Shown here: positions 9,043 through 51,933 of the stretch, one piece after another
Layout: each line of letters opens with the position of its first letter
How positions within the stretch are numbered: the stretch's first letter is position 1
From: Candidatus Woesearchaeota archaeon
Lineage (GTDB): Archaea > Nanobdellota > Nanobdellia > Woesearchaeales > ARS49
DNA length: 64,000 nt
Reading direction: 5' to 3'
Assembly: GCA_030750765.1 (NCBI GenBank)
Contig: JASMHM010000003.1
Location: forward strand, 85,385 to 149,384
Translations under genes and position numbers: made by a program
Notes under the pieces: generated by a model
Databases searched by the model: none
What the model was told of the DNA's origin: nothing
Seen by the model: the letters and a program-made list of their open reading frames with translations, nothing else

Positions 9043-9583
9043 AGAGGGCGTGTTGCAAGTAACTGCAGACGCCCATTTCTATATTGTTGATGCTGATGAA
9101 CGCATAGCCATCGATACGGGTTCTAGAAGTGAGAGACATCTTTTAGAAAAGTTCATGAAAAGCGCCATTCCTCCAGAAAGCATCAAAAAAGTTATACTAA
9201 CGCATGCACATTACGATCATGCAGGCAATTTTGACTTCTTTCCCAATGCAGAGATATTCATGCATAAAGAAGAAATAAAAGCCTTCAAAGACGATCCTAA
9301 AGGGGCCACGATGAGCGAAGATCTTTGGAAAAAACTAGAAGTACGAGAGATCAAGCCACTACCTAAGAAGATAGCGGGCTTAGAAGTCATCCACACACCC
9401 GGTCACACCAAAGGCAGCGTGTGCCTATGGTGGGAAGAACGCAAAATACTCTTCACTGGCGACACCTTATTCGAGAACGGTACTGGCAGAGTTGACTTAC
9501 CCACTTCTGATGCAGAGGCCATGGGTCCTAGTCTTGGCAAGCTCGTACCGTACAACCATGAAAGAATCTGTGCAGGGCATTAG
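9014..9583 (+). CDS. Metallo-beta-lactamase-fold hydrolase
   Basis: LTHAHYDHAGN, HTPGHTKGSVCLW, FTGDTLFENGTGR; ends at ...ICAGH. Confidence 0.85.
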   Translation: MATSVLSTIEEGVLQVTADAHFYIVDADERIAIDTGSRSERHLLEKFMKSAIPPESIKKVILTHAHYDHAGNFDFFPNAEIFMHKEEIKAFKDDPKGATMSEDLWKKLEVREIKPLPKKIAGLEVIHTPGHTKGSVCLWWEERKILFTGDTLFENGTGRVDLPTSDAEAMGPSLGKLVPYNHERICAGH

Positions 9584-9622
9584 CCACTGGACACTGGACA
9601 TGGGCGCGTAGCGCATATAAGG
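9583..9622 (+). promoter_or_regulatory. hef promoter: 23-nt element + 6-nt spacer + CGCATATAAGG TATA box
   Basis: GCCACTGGACACTGGACATGGGC-gcgtag-CGCATATAAGG; the 23-mer is an exact reverse complement of 51911-51933. Confidence 0.75.
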
Positions 9623-9716
9623 GACAATACTACCTTTACTCTATGAGGATAGTCAAGATCAGTTGGAGCGAAATCTACAAAAAAAGCAAGAAAAAAGTGC
9701 TCCAGAGGTGGTTCCC

Positions 9717-11918
9717 ATGCTAGATTTAAAAGTCAAAGACGATTCCTGGCGAGTCATGCTAGAGAATTTCAAACCTCGACTCTACCAAGAAACCATTTTT
9801 AGCACAGCAACAACAAAAAACACCTTAGTCGTGCTTCCCACCGGTATGGGCAAAACAGCCATCGCACTCATGATGGCCGCCCACCGTTTAAACATTTATC
9901 CCAAAAGCAAAGTACTCTTCCTTGCACCAACAAAACCTTTAGTGGAGCAGCACAAGAAAAGTTTTGAAGAACAATGTAATGTTGATGATTTAGTCGTCTT
10001 TACCGGAGAGATCCGGCCAGAAGAAAGAAAAAACTTGTGGAAGCAAGCGAAAATAATTTTCTCAACACCCCAAAGTGTAGAGAATGACATCATCAACGAA
10101 AAGATATCACTCAAAGATGTTTCCTTGATCGTGTTTGACGAAGCACATCGCGGAGTGGGAGACTATGCCTACCCATTCCTAGCAAAACAATACCTACAAC
10201 AAGCCACCAACGCCCGAGTGTTAGGATTAACCGCAAGCCCTGGCGGAGATACTCAAAAGATAGAAGAGATCTGCACCAATCTTCACATCGAAGCGGTAGA
10301 AGTACGCACAGACGAAGATCCTGATGTGGCGCCGTACATCCAACCGGTAGAATTGAATATGATCAAAGTAGACCTGCCTCCTGCACTTTTAGAAGCAAGA
10401 AATTCTGTAGACAAGTGCATCAAAACAAAATTAGAAACTTTACAAAAATATGGTGGTAAAATACCCTACTACAGTAAGAAAGAGTTGCTAGCATTACAAC
10501 GCAGAATCCATGCTCAGCTCGCTCATGGCAACAACTTCCTCCTCTTGAAGTGCATGAGCGTGCTAGCAGAAATTATCAAAGCACAACACGCCTTGGAGCT
10601 TATAGAAACCCAAGGGGTGAGTCCGGCATTAGTATATTTCCAAAGAATGTATGATGAGTACTCCACCACTAAAGTTAAAGCAACAAAAAGATTGTGCGAA
10701 GACGCCAACTTCAAGACAGCCTATCTAAAAATTCAAGGTTTGGCTGATAAAAACTTAGAACATCCCAAAATACCTGCGCTACGAGAAGAATTAGAAAATA
10801 CCTTTGCGGCAAACAAGTTTGCTAAAGTGATACTCTTCACACAATACCGAGATACGGCTAGCAAGCTCAAAAAAGTCATCAGAGACGTAAAGGGAGTGCT
10901 GCCAGAACTCTTTGTAGGGCAAGCCAAAAAACGAGGGACAGGCATGTCACAAAAAGAACAAGTAGCCATGCTCGACCAGTTCAAAGACGGATGCTTTAAC
11001 GTGTTAATCGCTACCTCTGTAGCAGAAGAAGGACTTGACATTCCCAAGGTGGACGAAGTCATCTTCTACGAACCCGTGCCTAGTGCGATTCGTACCATCC
11101 AACGAAGAGGAAGAACCGGCAGACTAGACAAAGGAAAGGTAACGCTGCTCATTACCAAAGGTACAAGAGATGAAGGATACCATTGGAGCGCGGTAAGTAA
11201 AGAAAAGCGCATGAAGAAAACATTAGATGGGATGAAAACGATCAAACCCAAACAACCCACGCTCAAAGATTACGAAAAACAGGACGTCTTAGTACACGCA
11301 GACCATAGAGAGAAAGGAAGCCCAGTCATCAAGGGACTGATCGAACTGGGTGTTAGCGTACGATTAGAAACCTTAAACAAAGGAGACTTTGTTATTAGCA
11401 ACAAAGTAGGAATAGAGTACAAGACCGACCAAGATTTTGTTAACAGCATCATCGACGGAAGATTACTACAACAACTTAAGGAATTAAGACATTTTGACAA
11501 ACCCTTAGTGATCATTGAAGGAGAAGATTACTACAGTCATCGAGGCATCCATCCTAATGCTATCAATGGCATGCTTGCCACCATCGCCATAAGCTTCGGC
11601 ATTCCAGTATTACAAACAAAGCACGCGAAAGAGACTGCAAAATTGATACTAGCCATCGCAAAACGCGAACAAACCACTGAAAACAAAGACTACTCTCCTC
11701 ACTCTGAAAAACCCTCTCATTCTCTGAAAGGATTACAAGAATATCTTGTGAGCAGCCTCCCGAATGTAGGCCTAACCACTGCAAAAGATCTCCTCAAAGA
11801 GTTTGGCTCCGCCAAAAACGTGATCAACGCCAGCAAAGAAGACCTACAAAAATTAGAAGGGATTGGAAAGAAAATCTCAGAGCAAATAAAAGACGTCACT
11901 GACAAAGACTATCAATAA
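9717..11918 (+). CDS. hef: Hef-type SF2 helicase - ERCC4/XPF nuclease - HhH fusion
   Basis: VVLPTGMGKTAIAL (Walker A), IVFDEAHR (DEAH), RRGRTGR, GDFVISNKVGIEYKTDQDFVNSIIDGRL (ERCC4), C-terminal HhH. ORF track starts at TTG 9663; ATG 9717 with SD AGAGGTGG preferred. Confidence 0.9.
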   Translation: MLDLKVKDDSWRVMLENFKPRLYQETIFSTATTKNTLVVLPTGMGKTAIALMMAAHRLNIYPKSKVLFLAPTKPLVEQHKKSFEEQCNVDDLVVFTGEIRPEERKNLWKQAKIIFSTPQSVENDIINEKISLKDVSLIVFDEAHRGVGDYAYPFLAKQYLQQATNARVLGLTASPGGDTQKIEEICTNLHIEAVEVRTDEDPDVAPYIQPVELNMIKVDLPPALLEARNSVDKCIKTKLETLQKYGGKIPYYSKKELLALQRRIHAQLAHGNNFLLLKCMSVLAEIIKAQHALELIETQGVSPALVYFQRMYDEYSTTKVKATKRLCEDANFKTAYLKIQGLADKNLEHPKIPALREELENTFAANKFAKVILFTQYRDTASKLKKVIRDVKGVLPELFVGQAKKRGTGMSQKEQVAMLDQFKDGCFNVLIATSVAEEGLDIPKVDEVIFYEPVPSAIRTIQRRGRTGRLDKGKVTLLITKGTRDEGYHWSAVSKEKRMKKTLDGMKTIKPKQPTLKDYEKQDVLVHADHREKGSPVIKGLIELGVSVRLETLNKGDFVISNKVGIEYKTDQDFVNSIIDGRLLQQLKELRHFDKPLVIIEGEDYYSHRGIHPNAINGMLATIAISFGIPVLQTKHAKETAKLILAIAKREQTTENKDYSPHSEKPSHSLKGLQEYLVSSLPNVGLTTAKDLLKEFGSAKNVINASKEDLQKLEGIGKKISEQIKDVTDKDYQ

Positions 11919-38735: not shown

Positions 38736-40134
38736 GTTTGAAATCGAATAATGTTACCTTTCGGTCATGTAGTCCTAGAACTGGGACCACGCACGGGTCA
38801 GGGACGTGCCCCATTTTTTGCTGGAATTGTGTGCTGGGCTGCCAGCAACTTCCTACAACCATGTTCACCCCTCTGTACGTTTTTACTCTTGATTTGTGTA
38901 TGTGCCCTGACAAGAAATAATCAGGAATTCTTTCTATCACGAGTTCGTCTCGTTGAGGATCGGGAATGTACATTGCGCTGGTGTGTGCGGGTGCGAGGTG
39001 TCTGCACTTGAGTAAATACTCCATGACTAGTTCTGTTTTGTCAGAGGCCTGCCTTCCTGACTGACGGATACTGTTGACCGTGTCAGCATAGTAGGGATAG
39101 CTCATTCCGTGATAGAGCAATATGCTAAAGCCGGAGAATTCTTCACTTGCGTGTATGTTCAGCCAGGAAGGATTGCTTACCATGATGACGTTTGGGAGAT
39201 TGTATAACGCTGCGGCGTGTTCTTTGTCAAGACAGGGCTGTGGCTCGGATAGGCGTACTGAGTCGTGGTTGCCAGCACATATGATGATGGGAATGTGGGA
39301 GGGTATGGAAGCGAGTGCGAGCGCTGCCTCATCGTACATTTGTTTGACACTTGAGTAAGCCACCTCGCTTTCTTGGCCAGGATAGATACCTATTCCTGCC
39401 ACAACATCTCCTACAAGAAAAACGTAGCCAACCTTAGATGCTATGCGTCGTTGCTCTTCGCTTCCCCACTTTCCTTGGATCCAAGCAAGGAATCTTTGGA
39501 ACTCATCGTGCATGAATTCCTTTGCGCCCATCTCTGTGTCTGAAAGGACTACGGCGTAGGTTTCGTCAGGACTTTGTTTGACTTGTTGTTGCATAGGTAT
39601 GTCTGGGAGGAGGACGGCGCTTGCAAAGATGACGTTATCTCCTGCTCTGCCTACTATACCAATCACTTGGTCTAGCGACAGATCCTTAGCGAGTGTGTAA
39701 TTTGCGCTGTTTTTGGTGATGATGACCTTGATAGACTTCCCGCTTCGATCTTCCATCACTAATGAAATATGTTCGTTCTTGGTGATGTACTTGTCCATGA
39801 TCAATCCTATTATGGATACTGAACTTCCAGGTGTCACTCTAGATATGCTGGTGAGTTGTTGGAGTTCTTGTCTTGAGCGTAGAAGTGCTTCCATCTGTTT
39901 GAAGCGTACGGTCATGTGCCCTACAAAATCTTGGACCACTCGTTTCTTGTTGAAGTCTTGGTAGGAAAAAACAACCTCGACGTTGTGTTTTTGGCTTGGT
40001 GCAGAGGCGGGAGTTATCTCTTCATAGTATTTGTCGATGTTTTTCTCCACGTCATCTAGTATTTGCTTAGTAACAAGAGTGTTCTTGTCCATCAAGGATT
40101 CTATTATTTTCTTCTTTTTCAGGGTTTCATTCAT
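38722..40134 (-). CDS. polB: DNA polymerase D small subunit DP1
   Basis: OB-fold plus calcineurin-like phosphoesterase: CAGNHDSVRLSEPQP, LLYHGMSY, YFLSGHIHKSRVKTYRGVNMVVGSCWQ. Confidence 0.95.
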   Translation of the reverse strand: MNETLKKKKIIESLMDKNTLVTKQILDDVEKNIDKYYEEITPASAPSQKHNVEVVFSYQDFNKKRVVQDFVGHMTVRFKQMEALLRSRQELQQLTSISRVTPGSSVSIIGLIMDKYITKNEHISLVMEDRSGKSIKVIITKNSANYTLAKDLSLDQVIGIVGRAGDNVIFASAVLLPDIPMQQQVKQSPDETYAVVLSDTEMGAKEFMHDEFQRFLAWIQGKWGSEEQRRIASKVGYVFLVGDVVAGIGIYPGQESEVAYSSVKQMYDEAALALASIPSHIPIIICAGNHDSVRLSEPQPCLDKEHAAALYNLPNVIMVSNPSWLNIHASEEFSGFSILLYHGMSYPYYADTVNSIRQSGRQASDKTELVMEYLLKCRHLAPAHTSAMYIPDPQRDELVIERIPDYFLSGHIHKSRVKTYRGVNMVVGSCWQPSTQFQQKMGHVPDPCVVPVLGLHDRKVTLFDFKHDQQ

Positions 40135-41348
40135 AGTCCTAATTCTTCAGTTAATGTTGACTGGGCGTTCTCTACTAGGGTTTGGCTGGTGGAAGGAAAG
40201 ATTTCTCGGGTTCTCCCAAATCTTCCTTTGCTGATGACTTTAGCATTAATAACTCCTAAAACATCAAACTCTCCTATGATGTCGCTGACCCTTCTTTGGG
40301 TTAGTGGTCTAAGTGCGACTTGCTGACAAACATGTTTGTAGTGTTCGTACACCTCCCCTGTAAAGAGGGCATCATTTCGTTGGTTGCCAAGATCAAATAT
40401 GGCGTACAATGTTGCTTGGTAGTGTTTGGGCTGTCCTTTGACAAGCTCTATTACTTTGTCTCGTTCTATGGTATCTTCTGCTTTGTCTATATGTGACATG
40501 TTGACCTGGGTTGCGCCATCTCTTTCTGCGAGTTCTCCTGAGACGCGTAGTAATTCTATTGCGCGTCTTGCGTCTCCATGCTCTCTTGCAGCTATAGCCG
40601 CACATTTGGCTATGACCCCTTCTCCTACTGCGTTTTCGTTCATGCTCATCTTGACTCTTTGATCAAGTATTTCTTGTAGGTGCATGGCGTTGTAGGGAGG
40701 ATAGATGAGTTCTTCTTCAGAAAGACTACTTTTGACGCGAGGATCTAGTCTTTCTGTGAAAATAACGTCGTTGGATATGCCTACTATGCTTAGCTGTGCG
40801 TTTTTGAGCTCAGCATTGACTCTAGTAAGGTTGTATAACATTTCATCACCAATTTTTCCCACCAACACGTCTATTTCGTCTAGAACTATTAGTATGATTC
40901 GTTTCTCTTTGTCTAATTCCTTGAAAAAAATGCTGTACACTTCATCGGTAGGCAATCCGGTAGGAGGTATTGCCTTGCCAAACTCTCTGGCTAGTTGTGC
41001 GATAAGGCGATATTCAGTGTCTGCCACTTTTTTTAGTTTGCAGTTCAGATAGATCACTTTGAGTGGCAAGTTTTTCTTTTTTGCCACCTTTTCTAGTTGT
41101 TGGGTAGTGTACGTTACGGTCAATGTCTTGCCAGTACCTGTTTTTCCGTACACAAACAGGTTGGAAGGCTTCTGGCCTCGAAGGCAAGGGGCTAGTATGC
41201 TTGCCACTGCTTGTAGTTGTTCGGCTCTATGGGTAATTGTTTCAGGAACAAAGTTAGGCTGTAAGTACTCTTTATGCGAGAACAAACTTTCTGCTTCCAG
41301 ATAGTCTTCGAAAAACTGTCCCAACCCTTTATCCATCAAAAGTTCCAT
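40131..41348 (-). CDS. orc1: Origin recognition/initiator protein Orc1/Cdc6
   Basis: NLFVYGKTGTGKTLTVTYTTQQL, IILIVLDEIDVLV, GDARRAIELLRVSGELAERDG, C-terminal wHTH. Confidence 0.96.
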   Translation of the reverse strand: MELLMDKGLGQFFEDYLEAESLFSHKEYLQPNFVPETITHRAEQLQAVASILAPCLRGQKPSNLFVYGKTGTGKTLTVTYTTQQLEKVAKKKNLPLKVIYLNCKLKKVADTEYRLIAQLAREFGKAIPPTGLPTDEVYSIFFKELDKEKRIILIVLDEIDVLVGKIGDEMLYNLTRVNAELKNAQLSIVGISNDVIFTERLDPRVKSSLSEEELIYPPYNAMHLQEILDQRVKMSMNENAVGEGVIAKCAAIAAREHGDARRAIELLRVSGELAERDGATQVNMSHIDKAEDTIERDKVIELVKGQPKHYQATLYAIFDLGNQRNDALFTGEVYEHYKHVCQQVALRPLTQRRVSDIIGEFDVLGVINAKVISKGRFGRTREIFPSTSQTLVENAQSTLTEELGL

Positions 41349-41396
41349 CAGAAATGGAGGTTTAAATAGTTATATGTTTTCTAAAAGATATCCCCC

Positions 41397-41417
41397 ACCC
41401 CCTTGTTTCTTGTGGAA
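41397..41417 (-). promoter_or_regulatory. ORB-like element 1
   Basis: Minus strand TTCCACAAGAAACAAGGGGGT. Confidence 0.6.
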
Positions 41418-41443
41418 ATGGGTGGTAGTAGTAGTAGTAATTG

Positions 41444-41459
41444 TTTTCTATATAGAAAA
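41444..41459. repeat. 16-bp perfect palindrome TTTTCTATATAGAAAA
   Basis: Read directly; AT-rich, between the ORB-like elements. Confidence 0.9.
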
Positions 41460-41521
41460 GAAATAGAATGTTGTCGTCCGCGCATTTTTTTGGGTGGTTT
41501 TGAGTGGTTCGCACATCGTGT

Positions 41522-41541
41522 TTCCACCTGCAATAGGGGGG
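41522..41541 (+). promoter_or_regulatory. ORB-like element 2
   Basis: Plus strand TTCCACCTGCAATAGGGGGG; 15/20 identical to element 1, opposite orientation. Confidence 0.55.
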
Positions 41542-41610
41542 TTGGTAGTCAAAAACTGGCTAACCTTTATAAACGAGGAAAGACTACCTCTTAGTAACAA
41601 CAGGTGAACA

Positions 41611-50604: not shown

Positions 50605-51624
50605 CTATGCGTCCTGGATACCTTCCTCGGTGATGACAAAGACGGCTTCTGCCTCAGGCAGGTTAGGGCTGTCCACCATTTTTCCGACACGAGTTCCCTT
50701 TTTGCCTCTGCGCAGGTACACACGATAGGTAGAGTTGTGGGCTACAATGTGCCCGCCTATCGCTTGGGTGGGGTCACCAAAGAACACGTCCGGCTTGGAC
50801 ATCACTTGGTTGGTCACAAAAATGGCCACGTTATACTTGTCGCCTACATTTGCTAGCGCCCTCATGTGCTTGTTGATCTTTTGTTGCCTTTCTGCTAGGG
50901 TGCCGCGACCAATAAACTCAGCACGGAACTGTGCAGTCAGGCTGTCAACAACAACAACCTTAACGTTGAAGCCTTGCTTCTTGATCAGGTCTTCTACTTT
51001 TTCGGCAAGCAACATCTGATGGTCGGAATTGAATGCTCGAGCCACCTTGATGTTTTTCAGAACTTTTGCAGGATCTAATCCTGCACTCTTTGCCATCTGG
51101 GTTATTCGTTCAGGTCTGAATGTTCCTTCTGTGTCGATGAACACGGCTCCACCGTCTGCTCCGCCTTTGCTTTTAGGTAGCTGACACATTACTGCAAGGC
51201 TATGAGCCATCTGACTTTTGCCAGACCCATACTGTCCATACACTTCGGTGATGGCTGCGGTCTCAATACCGCCTCCAAACAGTTTGTTTAACTCTTCTGA
51301 TCCTGTGTTGATGCGGATGGCTTGCGCTCTTCTTTTCATGAGGTCTTCGCCGCTCTCAAAATTCATCTCCACATTTTCACGTGCGATAGCGATCACTTTC
51401 TTGGCAGTGGCTTCTGTCGTCTCACACGCACCCACTATCTCCCCAGGTGTTGCGACAGAAATGCTCATTAAATCGTTAAATCCTGCATCTTCCAACTTTT
51501 TGATGGTGGCAGGTCCTATGCCAGGAAGGTCGCCCACCCCTTGTACTTTGTCTGGGGTGATTGTTACCTCGATCTTTGGTTCCATATCTGTTTTAGTGTC
51601 CTGCTCTATATATTCCTTACTCAT
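50605..51624 (-). CDS. radA: DNA repair and recombination protein RadA
   Basis: [18 protein letters not shown] (HhH), [53 protein letters not shown]. Confidence 0.97.
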
Positions 51625-51863
51625 GCTTTTGCCTCCGGAGCCATGACGGCAAATTTGAATGCTTCTTCTAGCACTACGCTAGCGCGAGGCAGATCATTCA
51701 CTCTCATGGTGCTGGTTGTTTTCCAGTCGCCTTTTTGATCTTTATACACTCTTTCTAAGGACACGGTAAAATAGTCACCTTTGTCGTTCTGATTTTTCCA
51801 AACTTTGGCAGAGATACCTCCTGCCTTGAATTTCTGTATTGGTCCTGCGTTTTTTTCCATCAT
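51621..51863 (-). CDS. Small conserved-looking protein in radA operon
   Basis: [68 protein letters not shown] overlap with radA. Confidence 0.7.
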
Positions 51864-51893: not shown

Positions 51894-51933
51894 CCTTATA
51901 TGCGTCACGGGCCCATGTCCAGTGTCCAGTGGC
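51894..51933 (-). promoter_or_regulatory. radA-operon promoter: 23-nt element + 6-nt spacer + CGCATATAAGG TATA box
   Basis: Minus strand GCCACTGGACACTGGACATGGGC-ccgtga-CGCATATAAGG; same order and spacing as hef promoter. Confidence 0.75.

Follow-up and report, generated by a model that had tools for sequence, protein, structure and literature searches.

A predicted factor-binding box common to recombination and repair promoters across an archaeal order, with a non-initiator Orc1 paralog as its plausible regulator

The Sulfolobus protein Orc1-2, a non-initiator Orc1, is known to regulate the response to DNA damage, and its winged helix has diverged from that which binds ORBs (PMC9738581). The system described here resembles Orc1-2/DDRE of Saccharolobus (Sulfolobus) islandicus (PMC9738581) in two respects: a non-initiator Orc1 paralog is the candidate global regulator, and a short asymmetric box stands in promoters, which in S. 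islandicus are those of damage-response genes; the AAA+ plus winged-helix architecture of that protein may be a third parallel (here winged-helix-like, with Cdc6_C unmatched). The present system differs in the box itself, which is CACTGGACA, doubled and rigidly spaced from the TATA box, as against ANTTTC, and in its targets (radA, hef, dinD and Xer genes here, pili genes and orc1-2 itself there). Moreover, the S. islandicus regulator carries its own box, whereas the paralog gene is mostly unboxed here (a box lies upstream in 2/45 loci), and the present system belongs to a different archaeal lineage and is known from sequence alone.

As in the bacterial SOS response (LexA/RecA), a recombinase, a repair nuclease and dinD stand under one operator, which toxin-antitoxin-like and mobile genes also carry; however, the present box is a direct repeat upstream of an archaeal TATA box, and the LexA box is palindromic. 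Some archaeal activators bind directly upstream of BRE, as exemplified by GvpE and the ara-box, and the box described here has the same fixed position directly upstream of BRE/TATA, although its sequence and target genes are unrelated. In a small-scale search of open-access papers, no account of a regulon of this kind came up. To our knowledge, it is an open question whether an SOS-like transcriptional programme exists in archaea outside the Sulfolobales, and knowledge of how DPANN archaea regulate their genes is close to nil. The question is now testable, since the cis element is sharply defined and fixed in its geometry, its conserved targets number in the dozens, and a candidate regulator can be named.

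The window, i.e. the whole stretch of DNA analysed, comprises 64,000 nt of a Candidatus Woesearchaeota archaeon (assembly GCA_030750765.1, contig JASMHM010000003.1, positions 85,385-149,384 of the forward strand). It contains the following features.

9583-9605, + strand: hef-side element with two overlapping CACTGGACA boxes (9585-9593 and 9592-9600; 7-nt period), an exact match
9606-9622, + strand: spacer/BRE-like GCGTAG followed by CGCATATAAGG, with the TATA box at about 9615-9621 (from the sequence and from TATA spacing in order-wide radA promoters)
9643-9723, + strand: 26-aa ORF MRIVKISWSEIYKKSKKKVLQRWFPC, just 3' of the hef promoter and overlapping the probable hef start
9717-11918, + strand: hef, encoding a helicase with an ERCC4 nuclease (reading frame open from TTG 9663)
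50605-51624, - strand: radA recombinase (curated model)
51621-51863, - strand: first gene of the radA operon, 80 aa (consensus of its family: K-F-x-A-G-A-I-x-A-T-V-W)
51894-51910, - strand: spacer CCGTGA followed by CGCATATAAGG, with the TATA box at about 51901-51895 (from the sequence)
51911-51933, - strand: radA-side element, the identical 23-mer, with boxes at 51931-51923 and 51924-51916 (exact match)

The original prediction described a 23-mer upstream of hef which recurs in reverse complement upstream of the radA operon. The match is perfect, and 37 of 40 positions are identical between the hef and radA copies when the TATA box is included (hand count: 23 + 3/6 + 11/11). With up to three mismatches allowed, the window contained no match other than these two copies; dinucleotide shuffling, repeated 100 times, yielded none. 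Rfam (gathering threshold) and ARAGORN gave no match across the window. The tandem repeat noted earlier inside the element is indeed present, but its recognition unit can be refined to CACTGGACA, occurring twice with a 7-nt period. Likewise, both copies are exact as described, but they are not just a pair, being members of a set of 17 strong copies genome-wide.

Curated models bear out the assignment of the downstream genes as hef and the radA operon: Hef matched NCBIfam NF010337 with 895.9 bits (cut-off 610) and RadA matched NF003301 with 467.3 bits (cut-off 259). The probable start of hef is ATG 9717, as judged from an SD-like GAGGTG. The 26-aa ORF is kept in the sister species (MRIVKISWSEIYKKSKKKVLQRWFPC versus MHIVKINWSQIYKKSKKKVLERWFPC) and is possibly a leader peptide or a coupled microprotein. 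In the radA operon, radA is the second gene, and the box stands in front of the first, 80-aa gene, whose product is without a Pfam family and which is kept in at least 80 genomes, mostly of Woesearchaeota. A high-confidence prediction (pLDDT 90) gives this protein a beta-beta-beta-beta-alpha fold, with Pur-alpha and a PC4 homologue as its best nucleic-acid-binding fold matches; since all of these matches are weak (E > 0.1), they offer no more than a lead towards a role in single-strand binding.

A sequence-only model was built from the 17 copies and used to search the source genome (1.14 Mb, 16 contigs, 98.7% complete). It returned 17 matches at E <= 2.5e-12, the next one being at E = 0.016. 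A pattern search of this genome likewise gave well over two copies, and 0 for the reversed pattern. Two tail matches to the short pattern were rejected as copies, as both were without a TATA box. Far from being scattered without relation to promoters, each of the 17 copies faces a gene or small element lying downstream of it. Besides hef and the radA operon, the targets include DinD (NCBIfam equivalog, 359 bits, cut-off 242), a VRR-NUC nuclease, a thymidine kinase (best match 163.7 bits, just below the cut-off of 183), a pair of small ORFs, TnpB, a DUF4258 protein, LAGLIDADG-type (homing-endonuclease) ORFs and toxin-antitoxin-like genes. The presence of DinD and VRR-NUC together with TnpB and LAGLIDADG proteins in this list means that mobile genes and repair genes have a promoter in common.

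Conservation was followed in the sister species and across the order. Between the two sister species, the 44-nt core was identical at 43/44 positions for hef and 41/44 for radA, while the 50 nt upstream of the core agreed at only 10/50 and 15/50 positions, respectively, which is about chance. Hef is also boxed in several other families. A search of 371 genomes of the phylum for the exact 16-mer CACTGGACACTGGACA followed by a TATA-like word found the pattern in 60 of them, all but one in the order of the source genome; the reversed CACTGGACACTGGACA pattern had 0 matches in every genome listed. Phage records contained no match to the 40-mer, and all viral contigs together held only 7 exact 16-mers. 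The order yielded 91 exact 16-mer sites (including one site of the source genome and one triple repeat counted twice), and an ORF start lay within 250 nt of 81 of them. Clustering of the downstream proteins gave 23 radA operons, 16 microprotein/Zn-ribbon/Sua5 operons, 5 Hef/ERCC4 proteins, 5 Xer-type recombinases and 3 genes of a winged-helix family, termed A2. Single or double sites precede genes for Hjc, MCM, RadC, Tag glycosylase, DUF763, DUF5131 and a YprB-like RNase H (all Pfam-confirmed), and one further site precedes another protein without a Pfam match. Sua5/TsaC and TnpB, both among the boxed targets, are not repair genes.

The radA promoters were examined at 80 loci, obtained by protein search with the first gene of the operon and nearly all titled Candidatus Woesearchaeota or Nanoarchaeota. 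An exact CACTGGACA was present on the sense strand within 350 nt upstream of 69 of these operons, on the other strand in 2/80, and in reversed form within the same distance in 0/80; the remaining 353 kb around the loci contained 7. Conservation before hef and radA, on which the original prediction depended, therefore extends from the sister species and the Hef genes of other families to 69/80 radA operons.

The geometry of the promoters is equally constrained. Most boxed radA promoters contain two CACTGGACA copies, as direct repeats with a period of 7 nt in 21 promoters and 9 nt in 4, and of the 62 promoters with a TATA word nearby, 59 have the start of a TATA-like hexamer 13-16 nt beyond their last box. 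An inverted partner near the exact box was counted in one of the 69 radA promoters, and inverted forms were seen by eye in two others. About 14 radA promoters carry an additional box 64-75 nt from the next one, which suggests looping or a second operator. Spacing this rigid between box and TATA indicates that a bound factor would either touch the pre-initiation complex or compete with it.

Taken with the target genes, this conservation supports the earlier reading of a repair/fork-restart regulon, and extends it: the regulon reaches across the order and takes in mobile elements, with the Orc1 paralog as a plausible regulator. We consider it likely that CACTGGACA is the factor-binding box of an order-wide recombination/repair regulon, the likeliest factor being the non-initiator Orc1 paralog. 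As the box stands before repair genes across the order, repair is probably switched as one coordinated set. In the proposed mechanism, the factor would occupy a single box or, more often, a pair of them, set at a constant distance immediately upstream of BRE/TATA, and would gate the loading of TBP/TFB, either helping or blocking assembly. Activation is the preferred alternative, because the box lies outside TATA/TSS, a position that would fit an activator better; repression would act by blocking TFB. The hef gene and the radA operon belong to the core, dinD, nucleases, Xer, Hjc, RadC, Tag and others are added in different lineages, and TnpB elements, toxin-antitoxin-like and homing-endonuclease genes have come to use this promoter too. 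Membership of the regulon further singles out uncharacterised proteins which may act in recombination, namely the first protein of the radA operon and the microproteins linked to the Orc1 paralog.

The best-supported candidate for the trans factor is this paralog, and we infer its identity, plausibly, from several observations. The source genome encodes a second Orc1/Cdc6 protein (C11:36920-37978), which matched TIGR02928 with 169.9 bits, compared with 418.4 for the initiator in the window. Pfam matched its AAA domain and Cdc6 lid and left the Cdc6_C winged helix unmatched; solved Orc1/Cdc6 chains could nevertheless be aligned to its C-terminal region. The paralog was found in 187 of 213 genomes of the order, as well as in many genomes outside it. 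In the source genome its gene ends 42 nt before the box of a microprotein operon, and in many relatives the same boxed operon lies downstream of the paralog, at most about 2 kb away. A box was present within 1.3 kb downstream of the paralog in 19/45 loci (other strand 2, reversed control 1), and in 2/30 outside the order. The segment that corresponds to a winged-helix recognition helix reads YKTFQRkI, nearly invariant within the order; beyond the order its form is YRTFxRK and varies. The apparent coincidence of this helix change with box loss is only suggestive, because it reflects a single evolutionary transition at one clade boundary. Across individual genomes, paralog and box do not go together consistently: in three draft genomes (G033, G057 and G303) the box is present and the paralog was undetected, and many families with the paralog are without the strict 16-mer. 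Combining an AAA+ ATPase with a C-terminal winged-helix-like region, the protein would work like Sulfolobus Orc1-2. More tentatively, and with the balance slightly against it, the duplicated non-initiator Orc1 may be a master DNA-damage regulator throughout the class, recognising CACTGGACA within one order; if so, archaea would have in Orc1-paralog control of repair an ancient counterpart to SOS, reaching far beyond the Sulfolobales.

The boxed operon linked to the paralog (at 1496-1800 of locus L007, and in eight further loci) encodes one or two conserved microproteins, of an LxxLFxQQIxxL type and of an acidic type ending in AEEGFMxGYL, often together with a Zn-ribbon microprotein or Sua5/TsaC. 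In the window, the initiator orc1 occupies 40131-41348 (- strand), and the adjoining intergenic region 41349-41560, probably a replication origin, contains two inverted ORB-like repeats with G-strings (TTTCCACAAGAAACAAGGGGG and TTTCCACCTGCAATAGGGGGG) flanking a GTA repeat. These repeats have little in common with the box, and no reliance was placed on any resemblance of the latter to canonical ORBs.

The assumption that DNA damage is the signal was drawn from the target list. It is unlikely, although a real prospect, that the same factor governs a coordinated regulon in response to another cue, such as nutrient state or the phase of replication or of the cell cycle: the targets include MCM, thymidine kinase and Sua5/TsaC, and control linked to replication would be a natural task for a factor of the Orc1 type, but the recurrent core consists of RadA, Hef/ERCC4, Xer and Hjc, together with dinD. 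The last of these is a damage-inducible gene in bacteria.

There is a small chance that the regulator is instead the order-wide winged-helix family A2 (LRRYEKP...GIASSNIRRQLKRLR), acting with autoregulation. A box precedes the A2 gene in about 13 of the 30 loci read, A2 occurs in 185/213 genomes of the order, in most as a single copy, and its predicted winged-helix fold has weak matches to MarR-type regulators; searches of Pfam and NCBIfam gave no match. However, A2 was undetected in the source genome (98.7% complete), the sister species and G004 (100% complete), all three of which are boxed. As it is undetected in the genus of the source genome, where it is lost, and in G004, A2 is not the general factor and is more likely a target or co-regulator. 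A further winged-helix-like target, of 87 aa, was set aside as a local regulator, since the search of the sister species for a close homologue gave nothing convincing.

We regard as very improbable the idea of a generic core-promoter/BRE variant read by a TFB paralog without any specific regulon. The rigid position directly upstream of BRE/TATA would agree with it, but only 17 strong copies occur in the 1.14-Mb genome, their targets show a strong functional bias, and there are tandem or more distant extra copies. The weakest explanation, in which a scattered IS200/IS605-type element has the boxed sequence as its left end or promoter and left solo remnants at hef and radA, draws on the 5/17 copies at TnpB genes or apparent internally deleted TnpB elements and on the CCGGAAnnTTTCCGG-rich upstream flank common to several other copies, but we rejected it as having almost no chance of being right, since the hef and radA copies have no common flank beyond the promoter, no CCGGAAnnTTTCCGG-rich flank and no IS remnants, the boxed radA operons have differing flanks, the sequence upstream of the core is at chance between the sister species, and the spacing to TATA is rigid. 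What is left is explained by mobile elements having captured a promoter of the host.

The TnpB genes with a boxed promoter, and the boxed TnpB elements that look internally deleted and retain promoter and right end, are those at L004, L005, L006, L008 and L013. The RNA-like sequence downstream of the first three is without an Rfam family, save for a tRNA upstream of the L006 promoter. Boxed TnpB elements may be expressed together with repair genes. In the sister species, a boxed promoter also precedes an rtcB-like gene which, by eye only, appears to contain an intein.
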